Source of the DNA: Paludibacteraceae bacterium
GTDB lineage: Bacteria > Bacteroidota > Bacteroidia > Bacteroidales > Paludibacteraceae
Direction of reading: 5' to 3'
NCBI GenBank assembly: GCA_017542915.1
Contig: JAFXWI010000031.1
Span: 1 to 29,957 of the forward strand
Length of the DNA: 29,957 nucleotides
How positions within the stretch are numbered: the first letter of the stretch is position 1; each line of letters starts with the position of its first letter. This document shows positions 19,776-27,606 of the stretch, piece after piece. The position numbers and the translations under genes are program-made. The notes below the pieces were generated by a model, which was not told the origin of the DNA, searched no databases, and saw nothing but the letters and a program-made list of their open reading frames with translations.

Positions 19776-21476
19776 ATGAAAAAGTTTTTACTTATCGGTG
19801 CATTGGCTGTATCTTATTTGGCAAATGCGTATGGCTTTGATGTGACTAAATTTGAGAAAGTCCAAGTTCGTAACAAAGCAGTTTCTTCTTTGGAATTGAC
19901 GAAGCAGACAGCAGCTGAGTCTTATCAGCTGATGGATATTCAGTCTCTTATGGAAGCTCGTAAGCAACAGAAAGATGCTTCTTATGATCTTATTGACGAG
20001 TATTATGCTCTCGGAGCTTTCCATCTGGGAATATATGAAGGAACCGGTTCTTATAAATTAGGTCTCTTCATTCTCCCGTATATGGATTCGGTTGTTTATC
20101 AAAATGCCTATGGACATGCGGATTGGTTGGAGAATGGTGACACAGTTGCAAAAGCCGCTGACTCATATATTACCGGCTATGGAATTAGTAGTACTTATTA
20201 TATTCCTGAGGTGGCAGATCATACCTTCAACCCGTCGAAAGATTGGGGGCCATCTTACAAAGACACGACATTTCAAGTAAAGGGCTCAAAGTACGCAAGT
20301 ACAGCAAATGCTCAATATGTATTCTCTGCTGTTCCGAGTAAGTTTATGGGTGGCGGAACCGAAAATGCAAATATGACTCTTTGTGCTATGTGGGCAGATC
20401 CGGCACTTGATCCGGATGATGATAACCCCGACGGAAATGATTTATGGAGGGTCGGTGGTCGTCTGACCGGTGATGTGTATCTGAATGGAACGGGTGTTCA
20501 CTTGGATTCCGCCAACCGTAGCGTGACGGCTGATACGCTTGGTATCATCGTGGACAACCGCGGTTTGATGAAGATTGAGCAGATCCTTTGGCCGATTTAC
20601 AACGATGGTAAAGCTGATGCTGTTAATAAATTCATCCCGGATGGTGCTCAATTGCGCGTAAATATCTTCCCAATTAAAGGTAATACTATTTATGTAGATG
20701 ATACTATCGCAAGCGCTGTGATGACTAACGCAGACTATGTTAGCGCTGGAACAGGTTATGAGTGGCTTGGTACATTGCATACCAAATTCTATGAGGAAGA
20801 TATGTGGGGAAGTTTGGTTCAGACTCCGATCTGGATTGATGGTGATTTCTATGTTCAGTTGACCAACTTCAACGAGACCGGTTGTGATTTCGGTATCTTT
20901 TCGGACTTCTATAATTCGAATACCGCTACTACCGTTTACCAGCAAGATGGCAAGTTTAGCTTCCGTGCCAGCCGTGGTGGCGGTGGTAAATATGGTCAGA
21001 ACCTTGGTGTATCTTTCGACGCTTATTTCCCGACGCTGATCAGTGGTGAAGAGAGCAATATTATGTATGTTCCGAATGAGGGAGGCTATGCATATCATAG
21101 TGATCCTGATACTATTGGTACGATACTCTATGCCAATGTTCACCCCGAAGATTGGGAGTTTGAGATTGAAGAGGATTGGTTGCAGGTAGCAGAAGTTGAT
21201 ACTGCTTACTATGCACAATATCGTGCAGGTATTATATATCTTCAGGCAGAAGCTCTTCCTGATGGTGTTACCAGCCGTTCGGCTCTTGTAAACGTGATCG
21301 CTGATGGTGCCGTTCAAACCTTCATTGTTTATCAAGGTGTTGGTCAGGGTATTGAGAATACCAAGGCTGATGCGATCTTCGACAATAAGAACTATGACGT
21401 TTTGGGTCGTGAGATCAAAGATCAGAACTTCAAGGGTGTAGTGATCCGTAACGGTCAGAAGAAGCTCGTTAAGTAA
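19776..21476 (+). CDS. Secreted protein with BACON-like domain and sorting-type C-terminus
   Basis: A 566-aa exported protein. The start at 19776 gives a clean signal peptide (MKKFLLIGALAVSYLANA, cleavage after residue 18); an upstream in-frame ATG at 19728 would bury it and lies in a hairpin. Most of the protein has no recognised family. Residues about 455-535 (WEFEIEEDWLQVAEVD … SRSALVNVIADGAVQTFIVYQG) resemble a BACON domain, an all-beta module of Bacteroidetes surface proteins. The last 30 residues (YDVLGREI … KGVVIRNGQKKLVK) resemble the final strands of type IX secretion sorting domains, in a shortened form common in Bacteroidales. As the last gene of the import operon it may be a surface or secreted substrate-binding component. 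Function not known. Confidence 0.8.
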   Translation: MKKFLLIGALAVSYLANAYGFDVTKFEKVQVRNKAVSSLELTKQTAAESYQLMDIQSLMEARKQQKDASYDLIDEYYALGAFHLGIYEGTGSYKLGLFILPYMDSVVYQNAYGHADWLENGDTVAKAADSYITGYGISSTYYIPEVADHTFNPSKDWGPSYKDTTFQVKGSKYASTANAQYVFSAVPSKFMGGGTENANMTLCAMWADPALDPDDDNPDGNDLWRVGGRLTGDVYLNGTGVHLDSANRSVTADTLGIIVDNRGLMKIEQILWPIYNDGKADAVNKFIPDGAQLRVNIFPIKGNTIYVDDTIASAVMTNADYVSAGTGYEWLGTLHTKFYEEDMWGSLVQTPIWIDGDFYVQLTNFNETGCDFGIFSDFYNSNTATTVYQQDGKFSFRASRGGGGKYGQNLGVSFDAYFPTLISGEESNIMYVPNEGGYAYHSDPDTIGTILYANVHPEDWEFEIEEDWLQVAEVDTAYYAQYRAGIIYLQAEALPDGVTSRSALVNVIADGAVQTFIVYQGVGQGIENTKADAIFDNKNYDVLGREIKDQNFKGVVIRNGQKKLVK

Positions 21477-21503
21477 TACGAGGTGATCGATCGTGATAGC
21501 TAA

Positions 21504-21535
21504 GCAGCCTGCCTTTTGGCGGGCTGCTTTTTTTT
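21504..21535 (+). terminator. Terminator of the SusC/SusD-type operon
   Basis: GCAGCCTGCC (21504-21513) pairs with GGCGGGCTGC (21518-21527) with one G-U pair and loop TTTT, followed by eight T (21528-21535). A textbook intrinsic terminator 27 bases after the last gene's stop. Confidence 0.93.
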
Positions 21536-21775
21536 GTGTATGGTCTTGTGTATGATTGTGTATATGAGCGGAAAAGGTGGAGTATTTGGGTGAAGTTGGT
21601 TGATGTTATGGATTTATCCACCATTTTGCCCCACTTTTTATTAAAATGTTAATAATCTATGTAAGATGTACAAAATAAGGGTGTTTGCGTGCAATTGATG
21701 TTGTTGAAATCCTGTTAATAAAACAATTGATAAATTTTTTTGTGGGGAAATGTGGTGGATGTGAAATATTTTTTG
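21536..21775. other. Non-coding stretch between operon terminator and mraZ promoter
   Basis: No gene is supported here. GTGTAT occurs three times with 12- and 10-base spacing (21536, 21548, 21558), which could be a weak direct-repeat operator but is too short to be sure. The rest is AT-rich with no clear structure. Confidence 0.4.
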
Positions 21776-21783
21776 TAACTTTG
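21776..21783 (+). promoter_or_regulatory. Promoter -7 element before mraZ (dcw cluster)
   Basis: TAACTTTG fits the Bacteroidetes -7 consensus TAnnTTTG. A matching TTG at the -33 distance is not seen (GTGG is there instead), so the -33 part is weak. The expected transcript starts near 21789 and has a leader of about 140 bases before mraZ. The element probably drives the whole dcw set. Confidence 0.65.
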
Positions 21784-21788
21784 CACTC

Positions 21789-21899
21789 GCATTCGGCAAA
21801 TGGATCGCAATACCCAAACCGCTCCGCTAATTGGGAGGTGCGACCATTGCCTCTGCTCTCCCCACCGAATGCACTGCGTTGGCATTCGTCGGGGACCCC
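21789..21899 (+). promoter_or_regulatory. Structured mraZ leader with competing stems
   Basis: GCATTCGG (21789-21796) is complementary to CCGAATGC (21865-21872), but the latter can instead pair through CGAATGC with GCATTCG (21882-21888), extended by CCCC (21860-21863) with GGGG (21891-21894). The middle also holds CCCAA/TTGGG and GCAAT/ATTGC pairs. The two main pairings exclude each other, as in a switch or attenuator, though no T-run follows the second hairpin. The mechanism is inferred from pairing only. Confidence 0.45.
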
Positions 21900-21929
21900 A
21901 GTAATAAGATGTGAAAGAAAAATAGTATT

Positions 21930-22385
21930 ATGCAGACATTTATTGGAAATATAGAAGGACGGTTGGATGAGAAGGGACGTATATTCGTGCCGGCTGTTTA
22001 TCGTAAGATATTAGCTGAGGCTGAGAGTAAGCGGATCGTCATGCGTAGAGATACGGACAACGAATGTCTGATGTTTTATCCCGAGGCGGTATGGAATGAG
22101 AAAGTAGAGGCATTGCGTCAGGCATTGGACGAGTGGGATCCGGAGGATCAGCTGATTTTGATGCAGTTTATGGCAGATGCGGAATATTTGGAACCCGATG
22201 GTCAGGGCCGCATCCTGTTGCAAAGGAAAAATTTGGAGACTATAGGTGCGCAACAGGATGTGCTCTTTGTCGGGATGCTGAACCGTTTTGCACTTTGGGC
22301 TCCTGAGAAATTTGCGGAGAAACGTTTGAGCCAAAGCGAATTGGCAGCAAGACTGCGTGCAAAAATGAGTAAGAAGGAAGCCTGA
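21930..22385 (+). CDS. mraZ: Division/cell wall cluster transcriptional regulator MraZ
   Basis: A 151-aa protein made of two SpoVT/AbrB-like half domains, seen as DEKGRIFVPAVYRKIL near residues 13-28 and DGQGRILLQRKNLETIG near 90-106. MraZ is a ring-shaped DNA-binding protein that in other bacteria represses the dcw promoter from which it is made. As in most bacteria it is the first gene of the cluster and precedes rsmH. The start is preceded by A-rich sequence with no Shine-Dalgarno. TGGG-type MraZ boxes known from proteobacteria are not evident upstream, so the binding site here is unknown. The gap to rsmH is 118 bases, unusually wide, and filled by repeats. Confidence 0.96.
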   Translation: MQTFIGNIEGRLDEKGRIFVPAVYRKILAEAESKRIVMRRDTDNECLMFYPEAVWNEKVEALRQALDEWDPEDQLILMQFMADAEYLEPDGQGRILLQRKNLETIGAQQDVLFVGMLNRFALWAPEKFAEKRLSQSELAARLRAKMSKKEA

Positions 22386-22420
22386 CGTTCACAGAGGTGA
22401 TGAGATGATAAGTCGAATTA

Positions 22421-22460
22421 CCTACTAATCACCTACTAATCACCTACTAATTTCCTACTA
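22421..22460 (+). repeat. 11-bp tandem repeat between mraZ and rsmH
   Basis: The unit CCTACTAATCA begins at 22421, 22432 and 22443 (third copy ends in TT instead of CA), followed by a partial unit CCTACTA at 22454-22460. About 3.6 copies. The 11-base period is close to one helical turn, and each unit carries stop codons. Role unknown; it could be a slippage-prone spacer or a protein-binding array. Confidence 0.85.
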
Positions 22461-22503
22461 CAATACCGAAGGGAAGAGTTAAGAGTTAAAAGATAAAAGA
22501 TAA

Positions 22504-23604
22504 ATGGAGAATGTGTACCACATACCGGCAATGCTGAAAGAGACGATCGAGGGTTTGGCAATCAAGCCGAACGGGGTGTATGTGGATGTTACTTTCGGTG
22601 GAGGAGGACACAGCCGTGCAATTCTTGGTGAATTGAACGGAATTATAAATGAAAAATTAAAAATTAAAAATGAGGTTAACAGCGGCAAGTATGCCGCTGA
22701 ACAGGACAAAGAGGAAAGAGGCGGGCGGCTATACTCTTTTGATCAGGATATAGAGGCATATGAAAATGCGATCAAAGGAGAGGGGGAAGATCGCGCATTC
22801 ATGCACGATGCAAAATGGACGTTTGTGCATAGTAATTTCCGGTATTTACGGAACTGGATGGATTACTACGGAGTAACGGAGATTGATGGATTGTTGGCGG
22901 ATTTGGGCGTTAGTTTTCATCATTTTGATTGTCCGGAGAGAGGATTCAGTTTTCGGTTTAGCGCGCCGTTGGATATGCGGATGAACCAGACTGCCAAACG
23001 GACGGCGGCAGATATAGTGAATACTTACAGCGAGGAGGAATTAGCAAAAGTTTTTTGGTTATACGGCGAATTAAAGAACGGGAGGAGCATCGCAAGGAAT
23101 ATATGCAAGGCTCGTTCTCAGAAGCCGATTTTACGGACGGAGGAGCTGGTGGAAGCAGCGATGGGACTCCCGCTCGCGAAACTCACGGGCACAGAACACC
23201 GTGAGGCGCAAGGAGAAGAAGAGGGAAATCCGCCAAGATTGGCGGATGTAAGAGAGTTGGATATACCAGCACAGTACAAGAAGGATCTGGCACGGCTGTT
23301 TCAGGCGTTACGAATAGAGGTGAACGATGAGATGGGGGCACTGAGGGAGATGTTGGTGGCAGCGAGGGATCTGTTGAAACCCGGAGGAAGGATAGCGATC
23401 TTGACGTACCATTCGTTGGAGGATCGGTTGGTGAAGAATTTCCTGCGAAGCGGCAACTTGGAGGGGACGATAGAAAAGGATTTTTATGGAAATAACCTGA
23501 GTCCGTTTGAGGTGATCGAGAAAGGTCGTGAGGCGAGTGAGGAAGAGGTGGAACGCAATCCGCGGGCACGGAGCGCCAAGTTGAGGGTTGCGGAAAAGAG
23601 GTGA
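22504..23604 (+). CDS. rsmH: 16S rRNA (cytosine(1402)-N(4))-methyltransferase, with repeat-derived insertions
   Basis: RsmH (MraW) uses S-adenosylmethionine to methylate C1402 of 16S rRNA in the decoding site. The SAM motif TFGGGGHSRAIL (30-41), SFDQD (78-82), LADLGVSFHHFD (131-142), GFSFR, PLDMRMN and the C-terminal FQALRIEVNDE (266-276), TYHSLEDRLVKN and RNPRARSAKLR are all intact. At 366 aa it is about 60 residues longer than the roughly 300 expected from Bacteroides relatives. The extra residues fall in three places: about 45-72 (after the SAM motif), 91-104, and 219-258. Each coincides with repeat or palindrome DNA: an AT-rich repeat plus hairpin element, the 28-base GCATTCATGC element, and two perfect hairpins. 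All are in frame, so the enzyme is probably active, with surface loops enlarged. Confidence 0.95.
   Translation: MENVYHIPAMLKETIEGLAIKPNGVYVDVTFGGGGHSRAILGELNGIINEKLKIKNEVNSGKYAAEQDKEERGGRLYSFDQDIEAYENAIKGEGEDRAFMHDAKWTFVHSNFRYLRNWMDYYGVTEIDGLLADLGVSFHHFDCPERGFSFRFSAPLDMRMNQTAKRTAADIVNTYSEEELAKVFWLYGELKNGRSIARNICKARSQKPILRTEELVEAAMGLPLAKLTGTEHREAQGEEEGNPPRLADVRELDIPAQYKKDLARLFQALRIEVNDEMGALREMLVAARDLLKPGGRIAILTYHSLEDRLVKNFLRSGNLEGTIEKDFYGNNLSPFEVIEKGREASEEEVERNPRARSAKLRVAEKR
22641..22673 (+). repeat. AT-rich AATTAAAA repeat inside rsmH
   Basis: A run of AAATTAAA-type units ending in AATGA, in frame within rsmH and encoding a stretch like INEKLKIKNE. Nearly the same sequence occurs between ftsI and murE (26053-26086) and between murE and mraY (27564-27606). 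Inside rsmH it sits directly before the hairpin element at 22680, and both together form the first insertion in the protein. Confidence 0.75.
22680..22708 (+). repeat. Stem-ARTA-stem plus AACAGGACA element, copy in rsmH
   Basis: CAGCGGCA (22680-22687) pairs with TGCCGCTG (22692-22699) around AGTA, followed by AACAGGACA. A 29-base element of identical shape lies at 24226-24254, with stem CACGGCGG/CCGCCGTG and loop AATA. The inner stem bases differ between copies but pairing is complete in both, while the outer CA/TG, the loop and the AACAGGACA tail are shared. This copy is translated in frame as part of RsmH. Confidence 0.75.
22789..22816 (+). repeat. 28-bp GCATTCATGC palindromic element, copy 1 (in rsmH)
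   Basis: The core GCATTCATGC is flanked by CGC/ACG arms, preceded by GAT and followed by GATGCAAAAT. It is 27 of 28 identical to the copy at 23725-23752 and 23-24 of 28 identical to that at 26288-26315. Here it is read in frame as DRAFMHDAK (residues 96-104), within a segment that is longer than in usual RsmH proteins. Confidence 0.85.
23182..23205 (+). repeat. Perfect hairpin in the third rsmH insertion
   Basis: CTCACGG (23182-23188) pairs with CCGTGAG (23199-23205) around a 10-base loop. It lies in the stretch encoding residues about 227-234, where RsmH normally has only a short link before FQALRIEVN. No second copy was found in the window, so its membership in a repeat family is inferred from context. 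Confidence 0.5.
23228..23247 (+). repeat. Second perfect hairpin in the third rsmH insertion
   Basis: ATCCGCCA (23228-23235) pairs perfectly with TGGCGGAT (23240-23247) around AGAT. It is preceded by GAGGGAAA, which also precedes the intergenic hairpin at 23643-23659. It encodes part of the extra segment (NPPRLADV, residues 242-249) of RsmH. Confidence 0.55.
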
Positions 23605-23610
23605 AAGGCT

Positions 23611-23659
23611 CCGACCCCCCCCATGGAGGGGGAGGGAAAAGCGGACGATGACATCGTCC
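23611..23659 (+). repeat. GC-rich palindrome plus GATGACATC hairpin, copy 1 (rsmH-ftsL gap)
   Basis: A C8 run (23615-23622) leads into CCATGG and GGGGG (23628-23632), then GAGGGAAAAGC, then GGACGAT (23643-23649) pairing with ATCGTCC (23653-23659) around GAC. The same order, a C-run/G-run hairpin, an AGGG(G)AA linker and a hairpin with core GATGACATC, recurs at 24131-24166 with different outer arms that still pair. Confidence 0.7.
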
Positions 23660-23724
23660 TGACTATATTGACAGATGCCGAAGAAGGGGAAGAACGGAAG
23701 AGAGAGAAGGAATAGAGAAAAATA

Positions 23725-23752
23725 GATCGTGCATTCATGCACGATGCAAAAT
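23725..23752 (+). repeat. 28-bp GCATTCATGC palindromic element, copy 2 (at the ftsL start)
   Basis: This copy has the fully paired arms CGTGCAT/ATGCACG around TC and ends at the base before the ATG at 23753. It supplies an alternative in-frame ATG (23744) and GTG (23729). In the ftsL frame it is read differently from the copies in rsmH and murE, so the element is not kept for one peptide sequence. Confidence 0.85.
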
Positions 23753-24067
23753 ATGGCAGATGCACATGATATACAGAGTTGGCTGAACGGCGATAAGCTG
23801 CGGAGTCAGAAGATCAGGGAACAATATCCGTTGATCGGATTGATTGTGGCGTTGGTGTTTGTGTATATCTTTGCAGGGTATCAGGCTGCCAAACAACAAC
23901 ACCGTCTGACGGACACGAAGAAAGAGATGTTAGACGCTAAGTTCCGCTATATGACCATCAGCGCGGAGTTGACGAACTTGACGAGACAGAGTACGGTGGT
24001 TGAGGTGCTGAAAGAAAACGGAAGTGAGCTACGGGAGAATAACGTAGCGCCGGTGAAGATAGAATAA
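23753..24067 (+). CDS. ftsL: FtsL-like cell division protein
   Basis: A 104-aa (from 23753) single-pass inner membrane protein in the position of ftsL, between rsmH and ftsI. It has a short cytoplasmic N-terminus, one membrane segment (about residues 27-46, LIGLIVALVFVYIFAGYQAA), then a periplasmic helical part with spaced leucines and isoleucines suited to a coiled coil, and ends PVKIE like Bacteroidetes FtsL proteins. FtsL links FtsB/FtsQ to FtsW/FtsI in the divisome. Start choice is uncertain: ATG at 23753 follows directly after a palindromic repeat, ATG at 23744 and GTG at 23729 lie inside that repeat. The 23753 start is chosen because it leaves the repeat untranslated. Sequence similarity in this family is low, so position and topology carry much of the weight. 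Confidence 0.85.
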   Translation: MADAHDIQSWLNGDKLRSQKIREQYPLIGLIVALVFVYIFAGYQAAKQQHRLTDTKKEMLDAKFRYMTISAELTNLTRQSTVVEVLKENGSELRENNVAPVKIE

Positions 24068-24075
24068 GAACCCCA

Positions 24076-24193
24076 CCCAGACTTTGTTCTACGGGCGTCC
24101 ACTGGACGTCCGATCGGGCAAAGCCCTTCACCCCACAAGGGGAGGGGAAGCCGGATGACATCCGGCGGAATGGACGACGAAAACAAGGCTGGG
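24076..24193 (+). repeat. Nested multi-hairpin structure in the ftsL-ftsI gap
   Basis: An outer stem joins CCCAG (24076-24080) and CTTTGTT (24082-24088) to AACAAGG (24182-24188) and CTGGG (24189-24193) with one bulged A and one G-U. Inside are four hairpins in a row: CGGGCGTCC/GGACGTCCG (24092-24100 with 24104-24112), GGGC-AAA-GCCC (24116-24126), CCCC-ACAA-GGGG (24131-24142), and GCCGGAT-GAC-ATCCGGC (24150-24166). The last two form copy 2 of the compound repeat at 23611-23659. No T-run follows, and there is no coding potential that continues the neighbours. Confidence 0.7.
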
Positions 24194-24225
24194 CTAATGA
24201 CCCGAGGACAGAACGAAGAGATAAA

Positions 24226-24254
24226 CACGGCGGAATACCGCCGTGAACAGGACA
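24226..24254 (+). repeat. Stem-ARTA-stem plus AACAGGACA element, copy before ftsI
   Basis: CACGGCGG (24226-24233) pairs with CCGCCGTG (24238-24245) around AATA, followed by AACAGGACA; it ends seven bases before the ftsI ATG. It is the same length and layout as the copy inside rsmH (22680-22708) with compensating stem differences. Its location means it will shape the ftsI ribosome-binding region. Confidence 0.75.
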
Positions 24255-24261
24255 TCATAAG

Positions 24262-26058
24262 ATGAGTGACGAGCAAAGAAATACGGTATGGCGATTTGCG
24301 ATGATATTTATTGTCATCTTTATCGGCTTTGTGGCTGTGCTCGGGAAGATTGTGTATATACAGGCGGTAGAGCGGGACGAATGGTTGAAAGTGGCAGAGA
24401 AACAAGTGCCGACGAACCGTCCGATCAAAGCGACCAGAGGCAATATATTGGATTGCAACGGTCGATTGTTGGCAAGCAGTATGCCGCAATACTATGTATA
24501 TATGGATACACGCGTGCCCGCGTTGCACGACAAAGGCGGTGAGCTTTTTCAGAAACATATTGACTCTTTAGCGTTAGATTTGGCGGCAGTGGTGGGAGAG
24601 AAGAGTGCTGCGGAGTACAAGACGCGGATCGTGGATGCGTACCGTCATGGAGAGAAAAGGCTGAGGGTGTGCGACCATCGGATCAATTATTTGCAGCGTC
24701 AGGCTTTGGAACAGAACAAACTCATTAAGAAAGGTAAGTATAAGAGCGGTATTTTCTTTGAGGACCAGCATAGACGGATCAAACCTTATGGGATCTTGGC
24801 GAGCCGAACAATCGGCGGCATCTATGGTGAAGGCGGCAACGGGAAGTCGGGTTTGGAGAAAGGTTTTGACAAAGAGTTGCGCGGCGAGGACGGAATGAGC
24901 AGTATTCAGCGTATCGGCGGACGAAATGAGTCGGTGACGGTGGAGGAAGCGAAAGACGGTCTGGACGTGGTGACCACTATTGATGCGAACCTGCAGGACA
25001 TCGTGGAGAACGCGTTGCTCGTCAAGACGGCTGAAAGGAATGCGAAATGGGGTTGCGCTATCCTGATGGAGACGCAGACCGGATATATTCGTGCGATTGC
25101 GAACATAGACCGAGACGAGAACGGTGAGTATTTAGAGGCGCAGAATCATGCTGTACAGCGTGTGGAGCCGGGATCGACGTTTAAGACGATCGCTTTGGTG
25201 GCAGCCTTGGACGACGGGAAGATCGATATAGATGATACGGTGACGGTGAGTCGTCAGCCTTGGAAATACTTCTCGGTGAAACACACGGACGCTCACCCGA
25301 TGGACACGATGCTGACCGTTCGGTCGGCTTTGGCGGTGTCGAGTAACATCGCTTTGGCGAAACTGATCACACGCAGTTATGAAGGATCGGCGAAGAAATT
25401 CGTGAGAAGGATAGAGAAAATGGGTCTGTTAGACAGCGTGTATTGCGAGATCCCGGGAGCCGATAAAGTGCGAATCGATGTGCCGAGAGACACGGTGACG
25501 CTGAGTAAGATGAGTTACGGGTACTCGGTGGAGATGAGCCCGATGCAGATTTTGATGTTTTATAACGCGATTGCCAACAACGGAAGGATGATGCGACCGA
25601 TGTTGGTGACGAGTATTCAGCAGAACGGCGAGGAGGTGAAGCGTTTTAGGCCGGAGACGGTGGAGAGCTCGATCTGCGGAAGCCGGACGCTGAGAGATAT
25701 TCAAGGAGCGCTGCACGATGTGGTGTGGGATGACCATTTGGGAACGGCAGCGAAGAAGAAATGGAGCCGTAAGGCACAATCGAACTTGGTGTCTATTGCC
25801 GGAAAGACAGGAACGGCTCAGTTGATTATCCCCGGGCATGGTTATTCGGGCAAACACCACCGAATGACGTTTGTGGGCTATTTCCCGGAGGAGAATCCGC
25901 GGTACACTTGTATCTGTATGATTGAAGATCCGCAATACCCGTACGATGCGGGAATGGATTGCGGCAGTACGGTGAGGGTGATTGCGGAGAAGACGATGGC
26001 TTACACAGGATGCTATGTTTGGAGAGATGGGGTAAGACATCTCGAAAAACGCAATTAA
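24262..26058 (+). CDS. ftsI: Peptidoglycan D,D-transpeptidase FtsI (class B PBP), no PASTA domain
   Basis: A 598-aa class B penicillin-binding protein, the septal cross-linking enzyme working with FtsW. It has one N-terminal membrane anchor (about residues 12-34), the dimerisation region with KATRGNILDCNGRLLASS, and the penicillin-binding domain with all three active-site motifs: S305-T-F-K308, S360-S-N362 and K515-T-G517. It ends about 80 residues after KTG. Bacteroides FtsI homologues are usually near 700 aa with a C-terminal PASTA domain; none is present here. The stop codon lies inside an AT-rich repeat that runs to the murE start. The nearest upstream gene is ftsL, 194 bases away across a heavily structured gap, whereas these genes are usually adjacent or overlapping. 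Confidence 0.95.
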   Translation: MSDEQRNTVWRFAMIFIVIFIGFVAVLGKIVYIQAVERDEWLKVAEKQVPTNRPIKATRGNILDCNGRLLASSMPQYYVYMDTRVPALHDKGGELFQKHIDSLALDLAAVVGEKSAAEYKTRIVDAYRHGEKRLRVCDHRINYLQRQALEQNKLIKKGKYKSGIFFEDQHRRIKPYGILASRTIGGIYGEGGNGKSGLEKGFDKELRGEDGMSSIQRIGGRNESVTVEEAKDGLDVVTTIDANLQDIVENALLVKTAERNAKWGCAILMETQTGYIRAIANIDRDENGEYLEAQNHAVQRVEPGSTFKTIALVAALDDGKIDIDDTVTVSRQPWKYFSVKHTDAHPMDTMLTVRSALAVSSNIALAKLITRSYEGSAKKFVRRIEKMGLLDSVYCEIPGADKVRIDVPRDTVTLSKMSYGYSVEMSPMQILMFYNAIANNGRMMRPMLVTSIQQNGEEVKRFRPETVESSICGSRTLRDIQGALHDVVWDDHLGTAAKKKWSRKAQSNLVSIAGKTGTAQLIIPGHGYSGKHHRMTFVGYFPEENPRYTCICMIEDPQYPYDAGMDCGSTVRVIAEKTMAYTGCYVWRDGVRHLEKRN

Positions 26059-26086
26059 AAATTAAAAATTAAGAATTAAGAATTAT
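26053..26086 (+). repeat. AT-rich AATTAAAA/AATTAAG repeat before murE
   Basis: Three AATTAAAA-type units followed by two AATTAAG units and AATTAT, reaching to the base before the murE ATG. Related to the runs at 22641-22673 and 27564-27606. It overlaps the last two codons of ftsI. Confidence 0.75.
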
Positions 26087-27565
26087 ATGCTTTTATCCGA
26101 GTTATTGACAGCGATTGAGCCGATAGAGGTGATCGGTTCGACAGAGAAAGAGATCAAGGGTCTGCATTTTGACAGCCGTAAGGTGGGTCAAGGCGATCTG
26201 TTCGTTGCGCAAGTGGGAACGGCAGTAGATGGACACACGTTCATTGAGGGTTGTGTGGAGAAAGGCGCGACTGCGGTCGTTCTGAGTGATCGTGCATTCA
26301 TGCACGATGCGAAGGACGTGACCTATATTTTGGTTGAGAACACGGATAAGGCGTTGGGATTGTTGGCAAGTAAGTGGTTTGGTGAGCCGAGTAAGGCGTT
26401 GACGCTTGTGGGCGTGACGGGAACGAACGGCAAGACAACTATTGCGACCCTGCTGTACAAACTCGTGCGTGCTTTGGGACACAAGGCTGGATTGCTTTCG
26501 ACCGTGGTCAATTATATCGAGGATGAGGCGGTTCCTGCAACCCACACGACGCCGGACGCGATCGAGTTGAACGGACTCTTGAGAAGGATGGTGGATGCAG
26601 GTTGTGAGTACGCGTTTATGGAAGTGAGTTCGCACGCGATTGCTCAAGAACGTATCGCCGGTTTGGACTTTGACGGGGCGCTGTTTACTAACCTGACGAG
26701 GGATCATATAGATTACCATAAGACCTTTGACAACTACCGCGATACGAAAAAACGGCTGTTTGACGGATTGAAGAAGACAGCTTTCGCGGTGACGAACAAA
26801 GATGACAAGAACGGACTCGTCATGACGCAGAACTGCAAGGCGGAAGTGAAGACTTATTCGACCCGCTCGTTGGCGGACTACAAGGCGCAGATCTTGGAAG
26901 AGGGTTTTGAAGGGATGATGCTGAATATCAATGGGAAAGAGGTGTTTGTGCCGTTGGTGGGACGATTCAATGTCAGCAATCTGCTGTGTATCTACGGCGC
27001 GGCTTTGTGTCTTGGCTTTGAGGAGTTGGAGGTGCTGCGTGTTCTGAGTACGTTGAAACCCGTGAACGGTCGTTTTGAGACGATCCGCAGCCCTAAAGGG
27101 TGGACGGCGATAGTCGATTATGCCCACACGCCGGACGCTGTTGATAATGTGATAAGTACCATAAGGGAGATCATAGATGGCCAAAACGGGACAGAGCCTG
27201 TCGAAAGTCGAAAGCCAAGATTGATTACCGTAATCGGTTGCGGCGGTAATCGGGACAAGGGCAAACGACCGATGATGGCGCAGATCGCAAAGAAGGGTAG
27301 TGAGCAGTTGATCTTGACGAGCGATAACCCGCGTGACGAGGAACCGGCTGATATTCTGAACGATATGAAAGCCGGGCTGACGGAAGAGGAGTTGCGAAGC
27401 ACCTTGGTGATCGAAGATCGCGCTGCGGCAATCCAGACGGCTTGTACGTTAGCGCAAGCAGGAGACGTGATACTCGTTGCCGGTAAGGGCCATGAAGACT
27501 ATCAGATTATCAAGGGCGTGAAACACCATTTTGATGACCACGAACAAGTGCGGAAACACTTGTAA
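26087..27565 (+). CDS. murE: UDP-MurNAc-L-Ala-D-Glu:meso-diaminopimelate ligase MurE
   Basis: A 492-aa cytosolic Mur ligase that adds the third amino acid to the peptidoglycan stem peptide using ATP. The ATP loop GTNGKTT is at 112-118, the carbamylated-lysine segment YRDTKKRLF near 217-225, YAHTPDAVDN near 345-354, GCGGNRDKGKRP near 384-394, and DNPR at 413-416, the motif that marks meso-diaminopimelate specificity. Two oddities: residues 68-76 (DRAFMHDAK) are encoded by the 28-base palindromic element, replacing a variable surface stretch of the N-terminal domain; and about 12 residues (365-376, QNGTEPVESRKP) appear extra before the LITVIGCGGNRD strand, their DNA including a small GACAG-AGC-CTGTC hairpin (27190-27202). 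Active-site motifs are untouched, so the enzyme should work. Confidence 0.97.
   Translation: MLLSELLTAIEPIEVIGSTEKEIKGLHFDSRKVGQGDLFVAQVGTAVDGHTFIEGCVEKGATAVVLSDRAFMHDAKDVTYILVENTDKALGLLASKWFGEPSKALTLVGVTGTNGKTTIATLLYKLVRALGHKAGLLSTVVNYIEDEAVPATHTTPDAIELNGLLRRMVDAGCEYAFMEVSSHAIAQERIAGLDFDGALFTNLTRDHIDYHKTFDNYRDTKKRLFDGLKKTAFAVTNKDDKNGLVMTQNCKAEVKTYSTRSLADYKAQILEEGFEGMMLNINGKEVFVPLVGRFNVSNLLCIYGAALCLGFEELEVLRVLSTLKPVNGRFETIRSPKGWTAIVDYAHTPDAVDNVISTIREIIDGQNGTEPVESRKPRLITVIGCGGNRDKGKRPMMAQIAKKGSEQLILTSDNPRDEEPADILNDMKAGLTEEELRSTLVIEDRAAAIQTACTLAQAGDVILVAGKGHEDYQIIKGVKHHFDDHEQVRKHL
26288..26315 (+). repeat. 28-bp GCATTCATGC palindromic element, copy 3 (in murE)
   Basis: Identical to the ftsL copy over the first 23 bases including the full CGTGCAT/ATGCACG palindrome, differing only in the last few bases. 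It is read in frame as DRAFMHDAK, the same peptide as in RsmH although the two enzymes are unrelated at this position. Shared DNA, not shared protein function, is the only sensible reason for the match. Confidence 0.85.
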
Positions 27566-27606
27566 ATTAAAAATTAAAAATTAAAAATGAAGAATTACGA
27601 ATTATT
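27564..27606 (+). repeat. AT-rich AATTAAAA repeat before mraY
   Basis: Repeated AAATTAAA units then AATGAAGAATTACGAATTATT, filling the whole gap between the murE stop and the mraY start. Same family as 22641-22673 and 26053-26086. It may supply an unstructured A/T-rich ribosome landing site, which Bacteroidetes favour. Confidence 0.75.

Follow-up and report, generated by a model that had tools for sequence, protein, structure and literature searches.

The 29,957 nucleotides of contig JAFXWI010000031.1 from a Paludibacteraceae bacterium (assembly GCA_017542915.1), hereafter the window, carry three copies of a 20-bp palindrome, F1, within the division and cell wall (dcw) gene cluster. We consider F1 very likely to be an element resembling the repetitive extragenic palindromes (REPs), that is, a short non-autonomous hairpin served by a cognate REP-associated tyrosine transposase (RAYT, or TnpAREP) of the HuH/tyrosine kind, and we infer its movement. 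F1 reads ATCGYGCAT-NN-ATGCRCGAT, followed by GC on the + strand, and is found in rsmH, upstream of ftsL, and in murE. The second of these genes is presumably ftsL, a name that fits its cluster position and its conserved MADAHDIQ start. The copies and their hosts are as follows.

22790..22811, no strand assigned: F1 palindrome and GC foot in rsmH, in frame as DRAFMHDA, replacing a sister-clade segment that holds GCATTCAT
23726..23747, no strand assigned: F1 palindrome and GC foot upstream of ftsL, abutting the ATG at 23753, a plain insertion relative to G023, G005, G032 and G062 by sequence comparison
26289..26310, no strand assigned: F1 palindrome and GC foot in murE, in frame as DRAFMHDA, in a loop of equal length in congeners
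22504..23604, + strand: rsmH, host to one F1, one F2 and one F3 (F2 and F3 being further palindrome families)
23753..24067, + strand: ftsL, with F1 against its start codon
26087..27565, + strand: murE, host to one F1

The original prediction of three near-identical 28-mers is borne out by copies at 22788-22816, 23724-23752 and 26287-26315, with inner palindromes at 22790-22809, 23726-23745 and 26289-26308. The 9-bp arms flanking the two central nucleotides are perfect in the ftsL and murE copies, and the rsmH copy has a single mismatched pair. These copies are not due to chance, as had been claimed: at up to two mismatches, F1 matches three sites in the window and none in total over 100 order-1 Markov shuffles, and a 10-mer test allowing one mismatch points the same way [6 observed, 2.35 expected], being weak alone. 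The rsmH and murE copies encode DRAFMHD in identical phase, and the 28-mer upstream of ftsL ends at 23752, directly against the start codon; both relationships had been noted beforehand and hold.

F1 is a dispersed repeat within the genus. With up to one mismatch it is present in 10 of 61 genomes, comprising 10 of the 37 in the genus and none of the 24 outside it; the reversed F1 control matched one genome (G006) of the 61. Exact copies number 9 in RUG715 (G001), 11 in RUG454 and 9 in RUG225, with none for the reversed control. RUG715 is the nearest genome compared, and the dispersal counts come from the genomes of relatives. RUG225, UBA4331, RUG455, RUG454 and the SRR12081302 bin were chosen for holding F1, and the presence of F1 in 8 of 9 genomes is therefore no frequency. 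The second palindrome family, F2, is found in exact form in 16 of the 61 genomes, none of them outside the genus; RUG715 has 26 copies, and the control gave none. The proposal that F1 is a dispersed palindromic element also lying in frame within genes is supported, with further copies in relatives. Across contexts the arms of F1 are constant and its central dinucleotide is highly variable, and the GC foot (YYGC on the complementary strand) is present in 38 of 50 contexts, orthologues included.

Palindromes in general are in excess in a 380,654-base sample of RUG715 [length 20: 63, against 12-23 in five shuffles; length 17: 54, against 15-23; length 19: 42, against 12-18; length 28: 43, against 14-23], an excess inflated by the composition of the sample, 28 loci of which 8 were picked for F1. 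In the same sample the arm ATCGTGCAT was seen 21 times with 5.8 expected, about 17 of these within full or near palindromes, and the arm ATCCGCCAA 31 times with 10.4 expected, about 21 within palindromes. An uptake signal was rejected, since the surplus of single arms goes no further than full palindromes account for. Separately, F2 copies are embedded in one longer repeat (L058:2883, L063:2667, L171:6745, L172:6427, L175:957, L177:7187) whose flanks are near-identical and whose central dinucleotides differ, and an F1-type palindrome lies in frame in the DAHP synthase/chorismate mutase gene of UBA4331 (L004:4819) and at the same place in RUG225 (L253:2730).

F1 is linked to an enzyme by a syntenic RAYT/TnpAREP-like gene of two close relatives, RUG454 and RUG225, which has an exact ATCGTGCATTAATGCACGAT immediately upstream and the same palindrome in frame at amino acids 28 and 128, with a near-copy of F1 in frame at amino acid 250. 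The first F1 copy in RUG225 ends one base upstream of the transposase ATG, resembling the ftsL site; copies at this gene are upstream and internal, and no downstream copy was seen. F2 likewise has its own RAYT-like gene, carrying F2, in both of these genomes (L272 in RUG454). A single 407-codon frame of G009 has F1-type palindromes upstream of it and within it, four in all, of which three are exact and the other has a mismatch; this frame matches the NCBIfam family REP_Tyr_transpos (NF047646) with a score under the cut-off. A protein query found relatives in 29 of 41 genus genomes. All 62 homologues match NF047646 at E ≤ 0.01. H97 and Y182 are invariant and H99 is conserved in at least 90% of the 62, with a HuH-Tyr spacing of 85 residues from H97 to Y182. 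The pairing of gene and palindrome extends beyond F1: the palindrome in the HuH-Tyr linker matches the gene's own flanks at 27 of 55 loci, or 26 of 54 distinct ones (L200 and L226 are one place, and L244 and L245 are orthologues), and 1000 shuffled pairings of the 55 loci averaged 3.36 such matches and never exceeded 10.

A homologous protein is predicted to fold like the REP transposase of E. coli, with a DprA-fold domain after that part. In a profile search of PDB sequences TnpA was matched at E 0.01, whereas DprA did not appear up to E 1, and Pfam gave the C-terminal domain no name, so the proposed relation to DprA is one of predicted fold. As observations on these genes in their own right, RUG454 (L244) and RUG225 (L245:4284-5399) share 96.7% identity in the F1 transposase gene and 83.3% in the neighbouring gene at the site, a contrast that may reflect recent transfer, conversion or strong constraint; and in G004 (L196) five copies of one palindrome, 77 bp apart, precede a RAYT-like gene that has one more inside and one at its end.

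In a murE tree the window groups, as clade A, with RUG715, RUG454, RUG455 and the SRR12081302 bin, and RUG225, UBA4331 and G023 form the sister clade B. At the ftsL site, RUG454 has AAATAG-ATCGTGCATTAATGCACGATGCAAGAT-ATGG where G023 has AAATAAGAAT-ATGG, as for a plain insertion of F1, and in G005, G032 and G062 the sequence runs nearly straight into the ATG. RUG455 carries two F1 copies here as a 50-bp tandem, and the compared congeners outside clade A have none. Judging from these alignments, the ftsL copy is the only one of the three that is a plain insertion.

The murE site shows no gain in length. The 54-nt loop is identical in length in G004, G037, G062 and G063, and congener loops read S(D/N/K)Rx(Y/F)(M/L) with other DNA. 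F1 is present there in 6 of 36 rows (window, RUG454, RUG455, SRR12081302 bin, RUG225, UBA4331; row L155 of this alignment is misaligned), G037 has F1 with one mismatch at the loop, and RUG715 and G023, without F1, have other repeats at that place. Around this copy the window is identical to RUG225 and UBA4331 over about 58 nt, yet it differs from each at 33 of 280 nt. In rsmH, F1 is carried by all four clade-A genomes having that stretch (window, RUG715, RUG454, RUG455), and RUG225 and G023 have GAAGCGGCATTCATAGATAATCCGAGATGG at the site; the copy replaced a segment already holding GCATTCAT, with a net gain of 6 nt. Four of the 35 rows of the rsmH alignment (L004, L008, L124, L128) were dropped and not all were recovered later. 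The idea of a nine-residue insertion in both enzymes is not supported, given the equal murE loops and the replaced rsmH stretch. The accompanying statement that these positions are variable or shorter in homologues is correct for rsmH against much of the genus and incorrect for murE. Since congener murE loops are of equal length with other DNA, the expectation that close relatives would lack the nine residues is half contradicted for murE. Insertion suits the ftsL copy; for the copies in murE and rsmH the better fit is replacement of a stretch that already matched in part, which may have come about by templated overwriting or by change in place.

Both loops are hot spots, in which congeners carry in-frame heptamer repeats, C-rich hairpins and other palindromes. 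The inter-domain linker of DNA polymerase I (polA; L178, L279-L300) is another, with F2 or F2-like DNA in 5 of 22 genomes and other short repeats too. Such DNA is evidently able to settle in essential genes without breaking them. The rsmH of G019 (L118) has a long in-frame expansion in which an array of heptamers is joined by a C-rich hairpin, by one 17-bp and one F2-like palindrome, and by several tandem hairpin units of about 39 bp each, whose outer pairs change.

Under the REP-like reading, the enzyme would recognize the single-stranded F1 hairpin and then copy or move it, and copies would persist where they are in frame or just upstream of a start codon. An F1 enzyme belonging to the window's clade would have put its three copies in place, and the GC foot (YYGC) may substitute for GTAG. 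We propose this action by analogy with the TnpAREP of E. coli, which is able to process its own REP in vitro according to the available part of the source (PMC8266576). A bolder suggestion, which we regard as rather doubtful, is that the genus has a new class of REP system, in which a TnpAREP joined to a DprA-fold domain, possibly one that handles single-stranded DNA, carries its own REP in frame in its gene and spreads it partly by templated overwriting of look-alike sites. Such overwriting would explain how the murE and rsmH copies came to replace native stretches (in rsmH, one with a pre-existing GCATTCAT) and stayed in frame in essential genes.

Several observations weigh against the assignment of F1 to a REP-like system. 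Its movement is deduced, and neither the murE copy nor the rsmH copy is a simple insertion. The F1-type gene was found in only 2 of the 7 F1-carrying genomes searched, and RUG715, at 94% completeness and with its nine exact copies, is without it; in that genome a Y1_Tnp search found nothing and the protein query found two RAYT relatives with 17-bp palindromes, not F1. No F1-type transposase gene is visible within the window. Most F1 copies in genomes without the F1-type gene would be orphans, or the gene would be absent from the assembly. Under the rule used, 28 of the 54 distinct RAYT-like loci have no own-flank match, and this rule is loose enough to find some palindrome in the linker at 45 of the 55 loci. 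The scores against NF047646 are under the cut-off [P0121, 45.1 bits against 80 bits], and the F1 copy at residue 250 codes not for a loose loop but for part of a confidently predicted helix. Classical REPs have a GT[AG]G foot, which was found at 0 of 100 F1 ends and 0 of 94 F2 ends, and because it is absent at all ends tested, F1 is not filed as a canonical REP.

If F1 were instead a binding site for a dimeric DNA-binding protein, such as a regulator or nucleoid factor, sites would arise by point mutation, with selection on the arms and drift at the centre. The constant arms and widely variable central dinucleotide agree with this, as do the murE and rsmH copies, which lie on similar native sequence without clear insertion, and the lack of differences between the window and clade B over the 58 nt or so at the murE copy despite their overall divergence. 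We nevertheless consider it unlikely, as F1 and F2 each have a RAYT-like gene bearing the same palindrome, the ftsL copy is an insertion, and single arms show no excess other than that due to full palindromes. The view that DRAFMHD is an ancestral loop whose likeness in DNA is accidental draws on murE, whose DRx(Y/F)(M/L) part is old, and on the one-mismatch F1 of G037, but the 20 bp recur at three unrelated sites, of which one is non-coding, the shuffles gave no such match, and the copies are dispersed with controls near zero. Coincidence is refuted for the set of copies and has practically no chance as a general account; for the murE copy alone, an origin in place is possible.

The original prediction likened F1 to the palindromic elements of Rickettsia, and a CGTC-tagged or Rickettsia-type element would have no transposase of its own. 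The likeness stands for behaviour: stems of 8-9 bp starting with AT and in-frame copies in housekeeping genes match the description in the available part of PMC3733652, and in some 17-bp families of the genus CGTCC lies a few bases away. It does not stand for the enzyme-less type, since relatives have cognate RAYT-like genes, nor for the foot, as CGTC, TGTC or CCTC was found at 0 of 100 F1 ends and 0 of 94 F2 ends. Such an element was set aside on the foot test and the cognate genes, which largely refute it, and we hold it to be very unlikely. The F1 copy that abuts the ftsL start, and another hairpin 16 nt upstream of the ftsI start, suggest that the element might work as an RNA hairpin affecting how ftsL and its neighbours are transcribed or translated. 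Two of the three copies, however, lie within reading frames, compared congeners outside clade A are without the ftsL copy, and an Rfam scan of 21400-27600 gave no match at E up to 1. We give this explanation scarcely any credence, and regulation could be a side effect of the hairpins.

The same part of the window holds further palindromes:

23228..23247, no strand assigned: F2 palindrome ATCCGCCAA-GA-TTGGCGGAT in rsmH, in frame as NPPRLAD, with cognate RAYT-like genes in RUG454 and RUG225
22680..22699, + strand: 20-bp hairpin of F3 type in rsmH, in frame, with tail AACAGGAC and with further units in RUG715 and RUG455
24226..24245, + strand: F3-type 20-bp hairpin with tail AACAGGAC, 16 nt upstream of the ftsI start codon
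23643..23659, no strand assigned: 17-bp palindrome in the rsmH-ftsL gap
24150..24166, no strand assigned: 17-bp palindrome with tail GGAATGGACG in the ftsL-ftsI gap, a unit also in frame in rsmH of RUG715 and RUG455

The 5-mers adjoining the hairpins are mostly AT-rich words, with no tag common to all families. Repeats of the heptamer AATTAAA occur at 22641-22674, 26053-26086 and 27558-27605, one set being within rsmH. Several further heptamer families rank with the most enriched words of RUG715 and are found in frame in congener murE and rsmH loops.

The mechanism by which REPs spread is described as poorly understood in the available part of PMC8266576. A genus with several enzyme-hairpin pairs, in which many genes are marked inside and outside by their own hairpin, allows pairwise comparison of recognition, and the predicted DprA-fold domain suggests a way of handling the single strand. 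Essential genes, rsmH, murE and polA among them, keep a record of where such DNA is tolerated and of the way in which copies arrive.

Earlier work, as far as the available parts of the sources go, describes tnpAREP genes with REPs in frame in the interval from HuH to Tyr, and structures lacking GTAG that adjoin Bacteroidetes genes (PMC6006769), as well as REPs inside housekeeping genes, DNA polymerase I among them (PMC3733652). The behaviour had been noted as not known to be described for dcw genes of Bacteroidetes. REPs in genes, Bacteroidetes tnpAREP genes included, are published, and the dcw cluster as a place where several families meet is apparently new. A literature search (mostly open-access, with bioRxiv outside its scope) found no paper joining DprA and RAYT and, judging by the titles matched, none on such repeats in Paludibacteraceae; among the matches listed there was no DprA-fold fusion, GTAG-less 20-bp family, link of REPs to rsmH or murE, or meeting of several families in dcw genes.

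Compared with the CGTC-tagged REPs (Rickettsia RPE-4 and RPE-6, Neisseria dRS3), as described in the part of PMC3733652 available, F1 and F2 share the AT-initial stems and in-frame housekeeping copies but have no CGTC foot and do have a cognate transposase. Assignment to TnpAREP subclasses is by likeness to the published description, not by profile match. Similar to subclass 2.4, which is also found in Bacteroidetes, the F1 gene has an in-frame REP between HuH and Tyr (at amino acid 128), but the REPs of that subclass have GT[AG]G feet, according to the available text of PMC6006769, and those of the window do not. Subclass 2.6 is likewise from Bacteroidetes, with GT[AG]G-less hairpins and a median HuH-Tyr spacing of 82 residues, against 85 here; in the same text, in-gene REPs are called unique to 2.4, and the parts available do not mention a DprA-like domain. 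As in the REPtron of E. coli and Stenotrophomonas, short palindromes are dispersed, a HuH/Tyr gene has the same palindrome at its ends, and there are several pairs per genome, whereas the F1 system differs in lacking a GT[AG]G foot, in its perfect 9-2-9 palindromes, in the predicted DprA-fold C-terminal domain, and in having the palindrome inside the gene as well. The GTAG-less 20-bp families and the predicted DprA-fold domain on the transposase are, together with the dcw cluster in which several families meet, apparently new.

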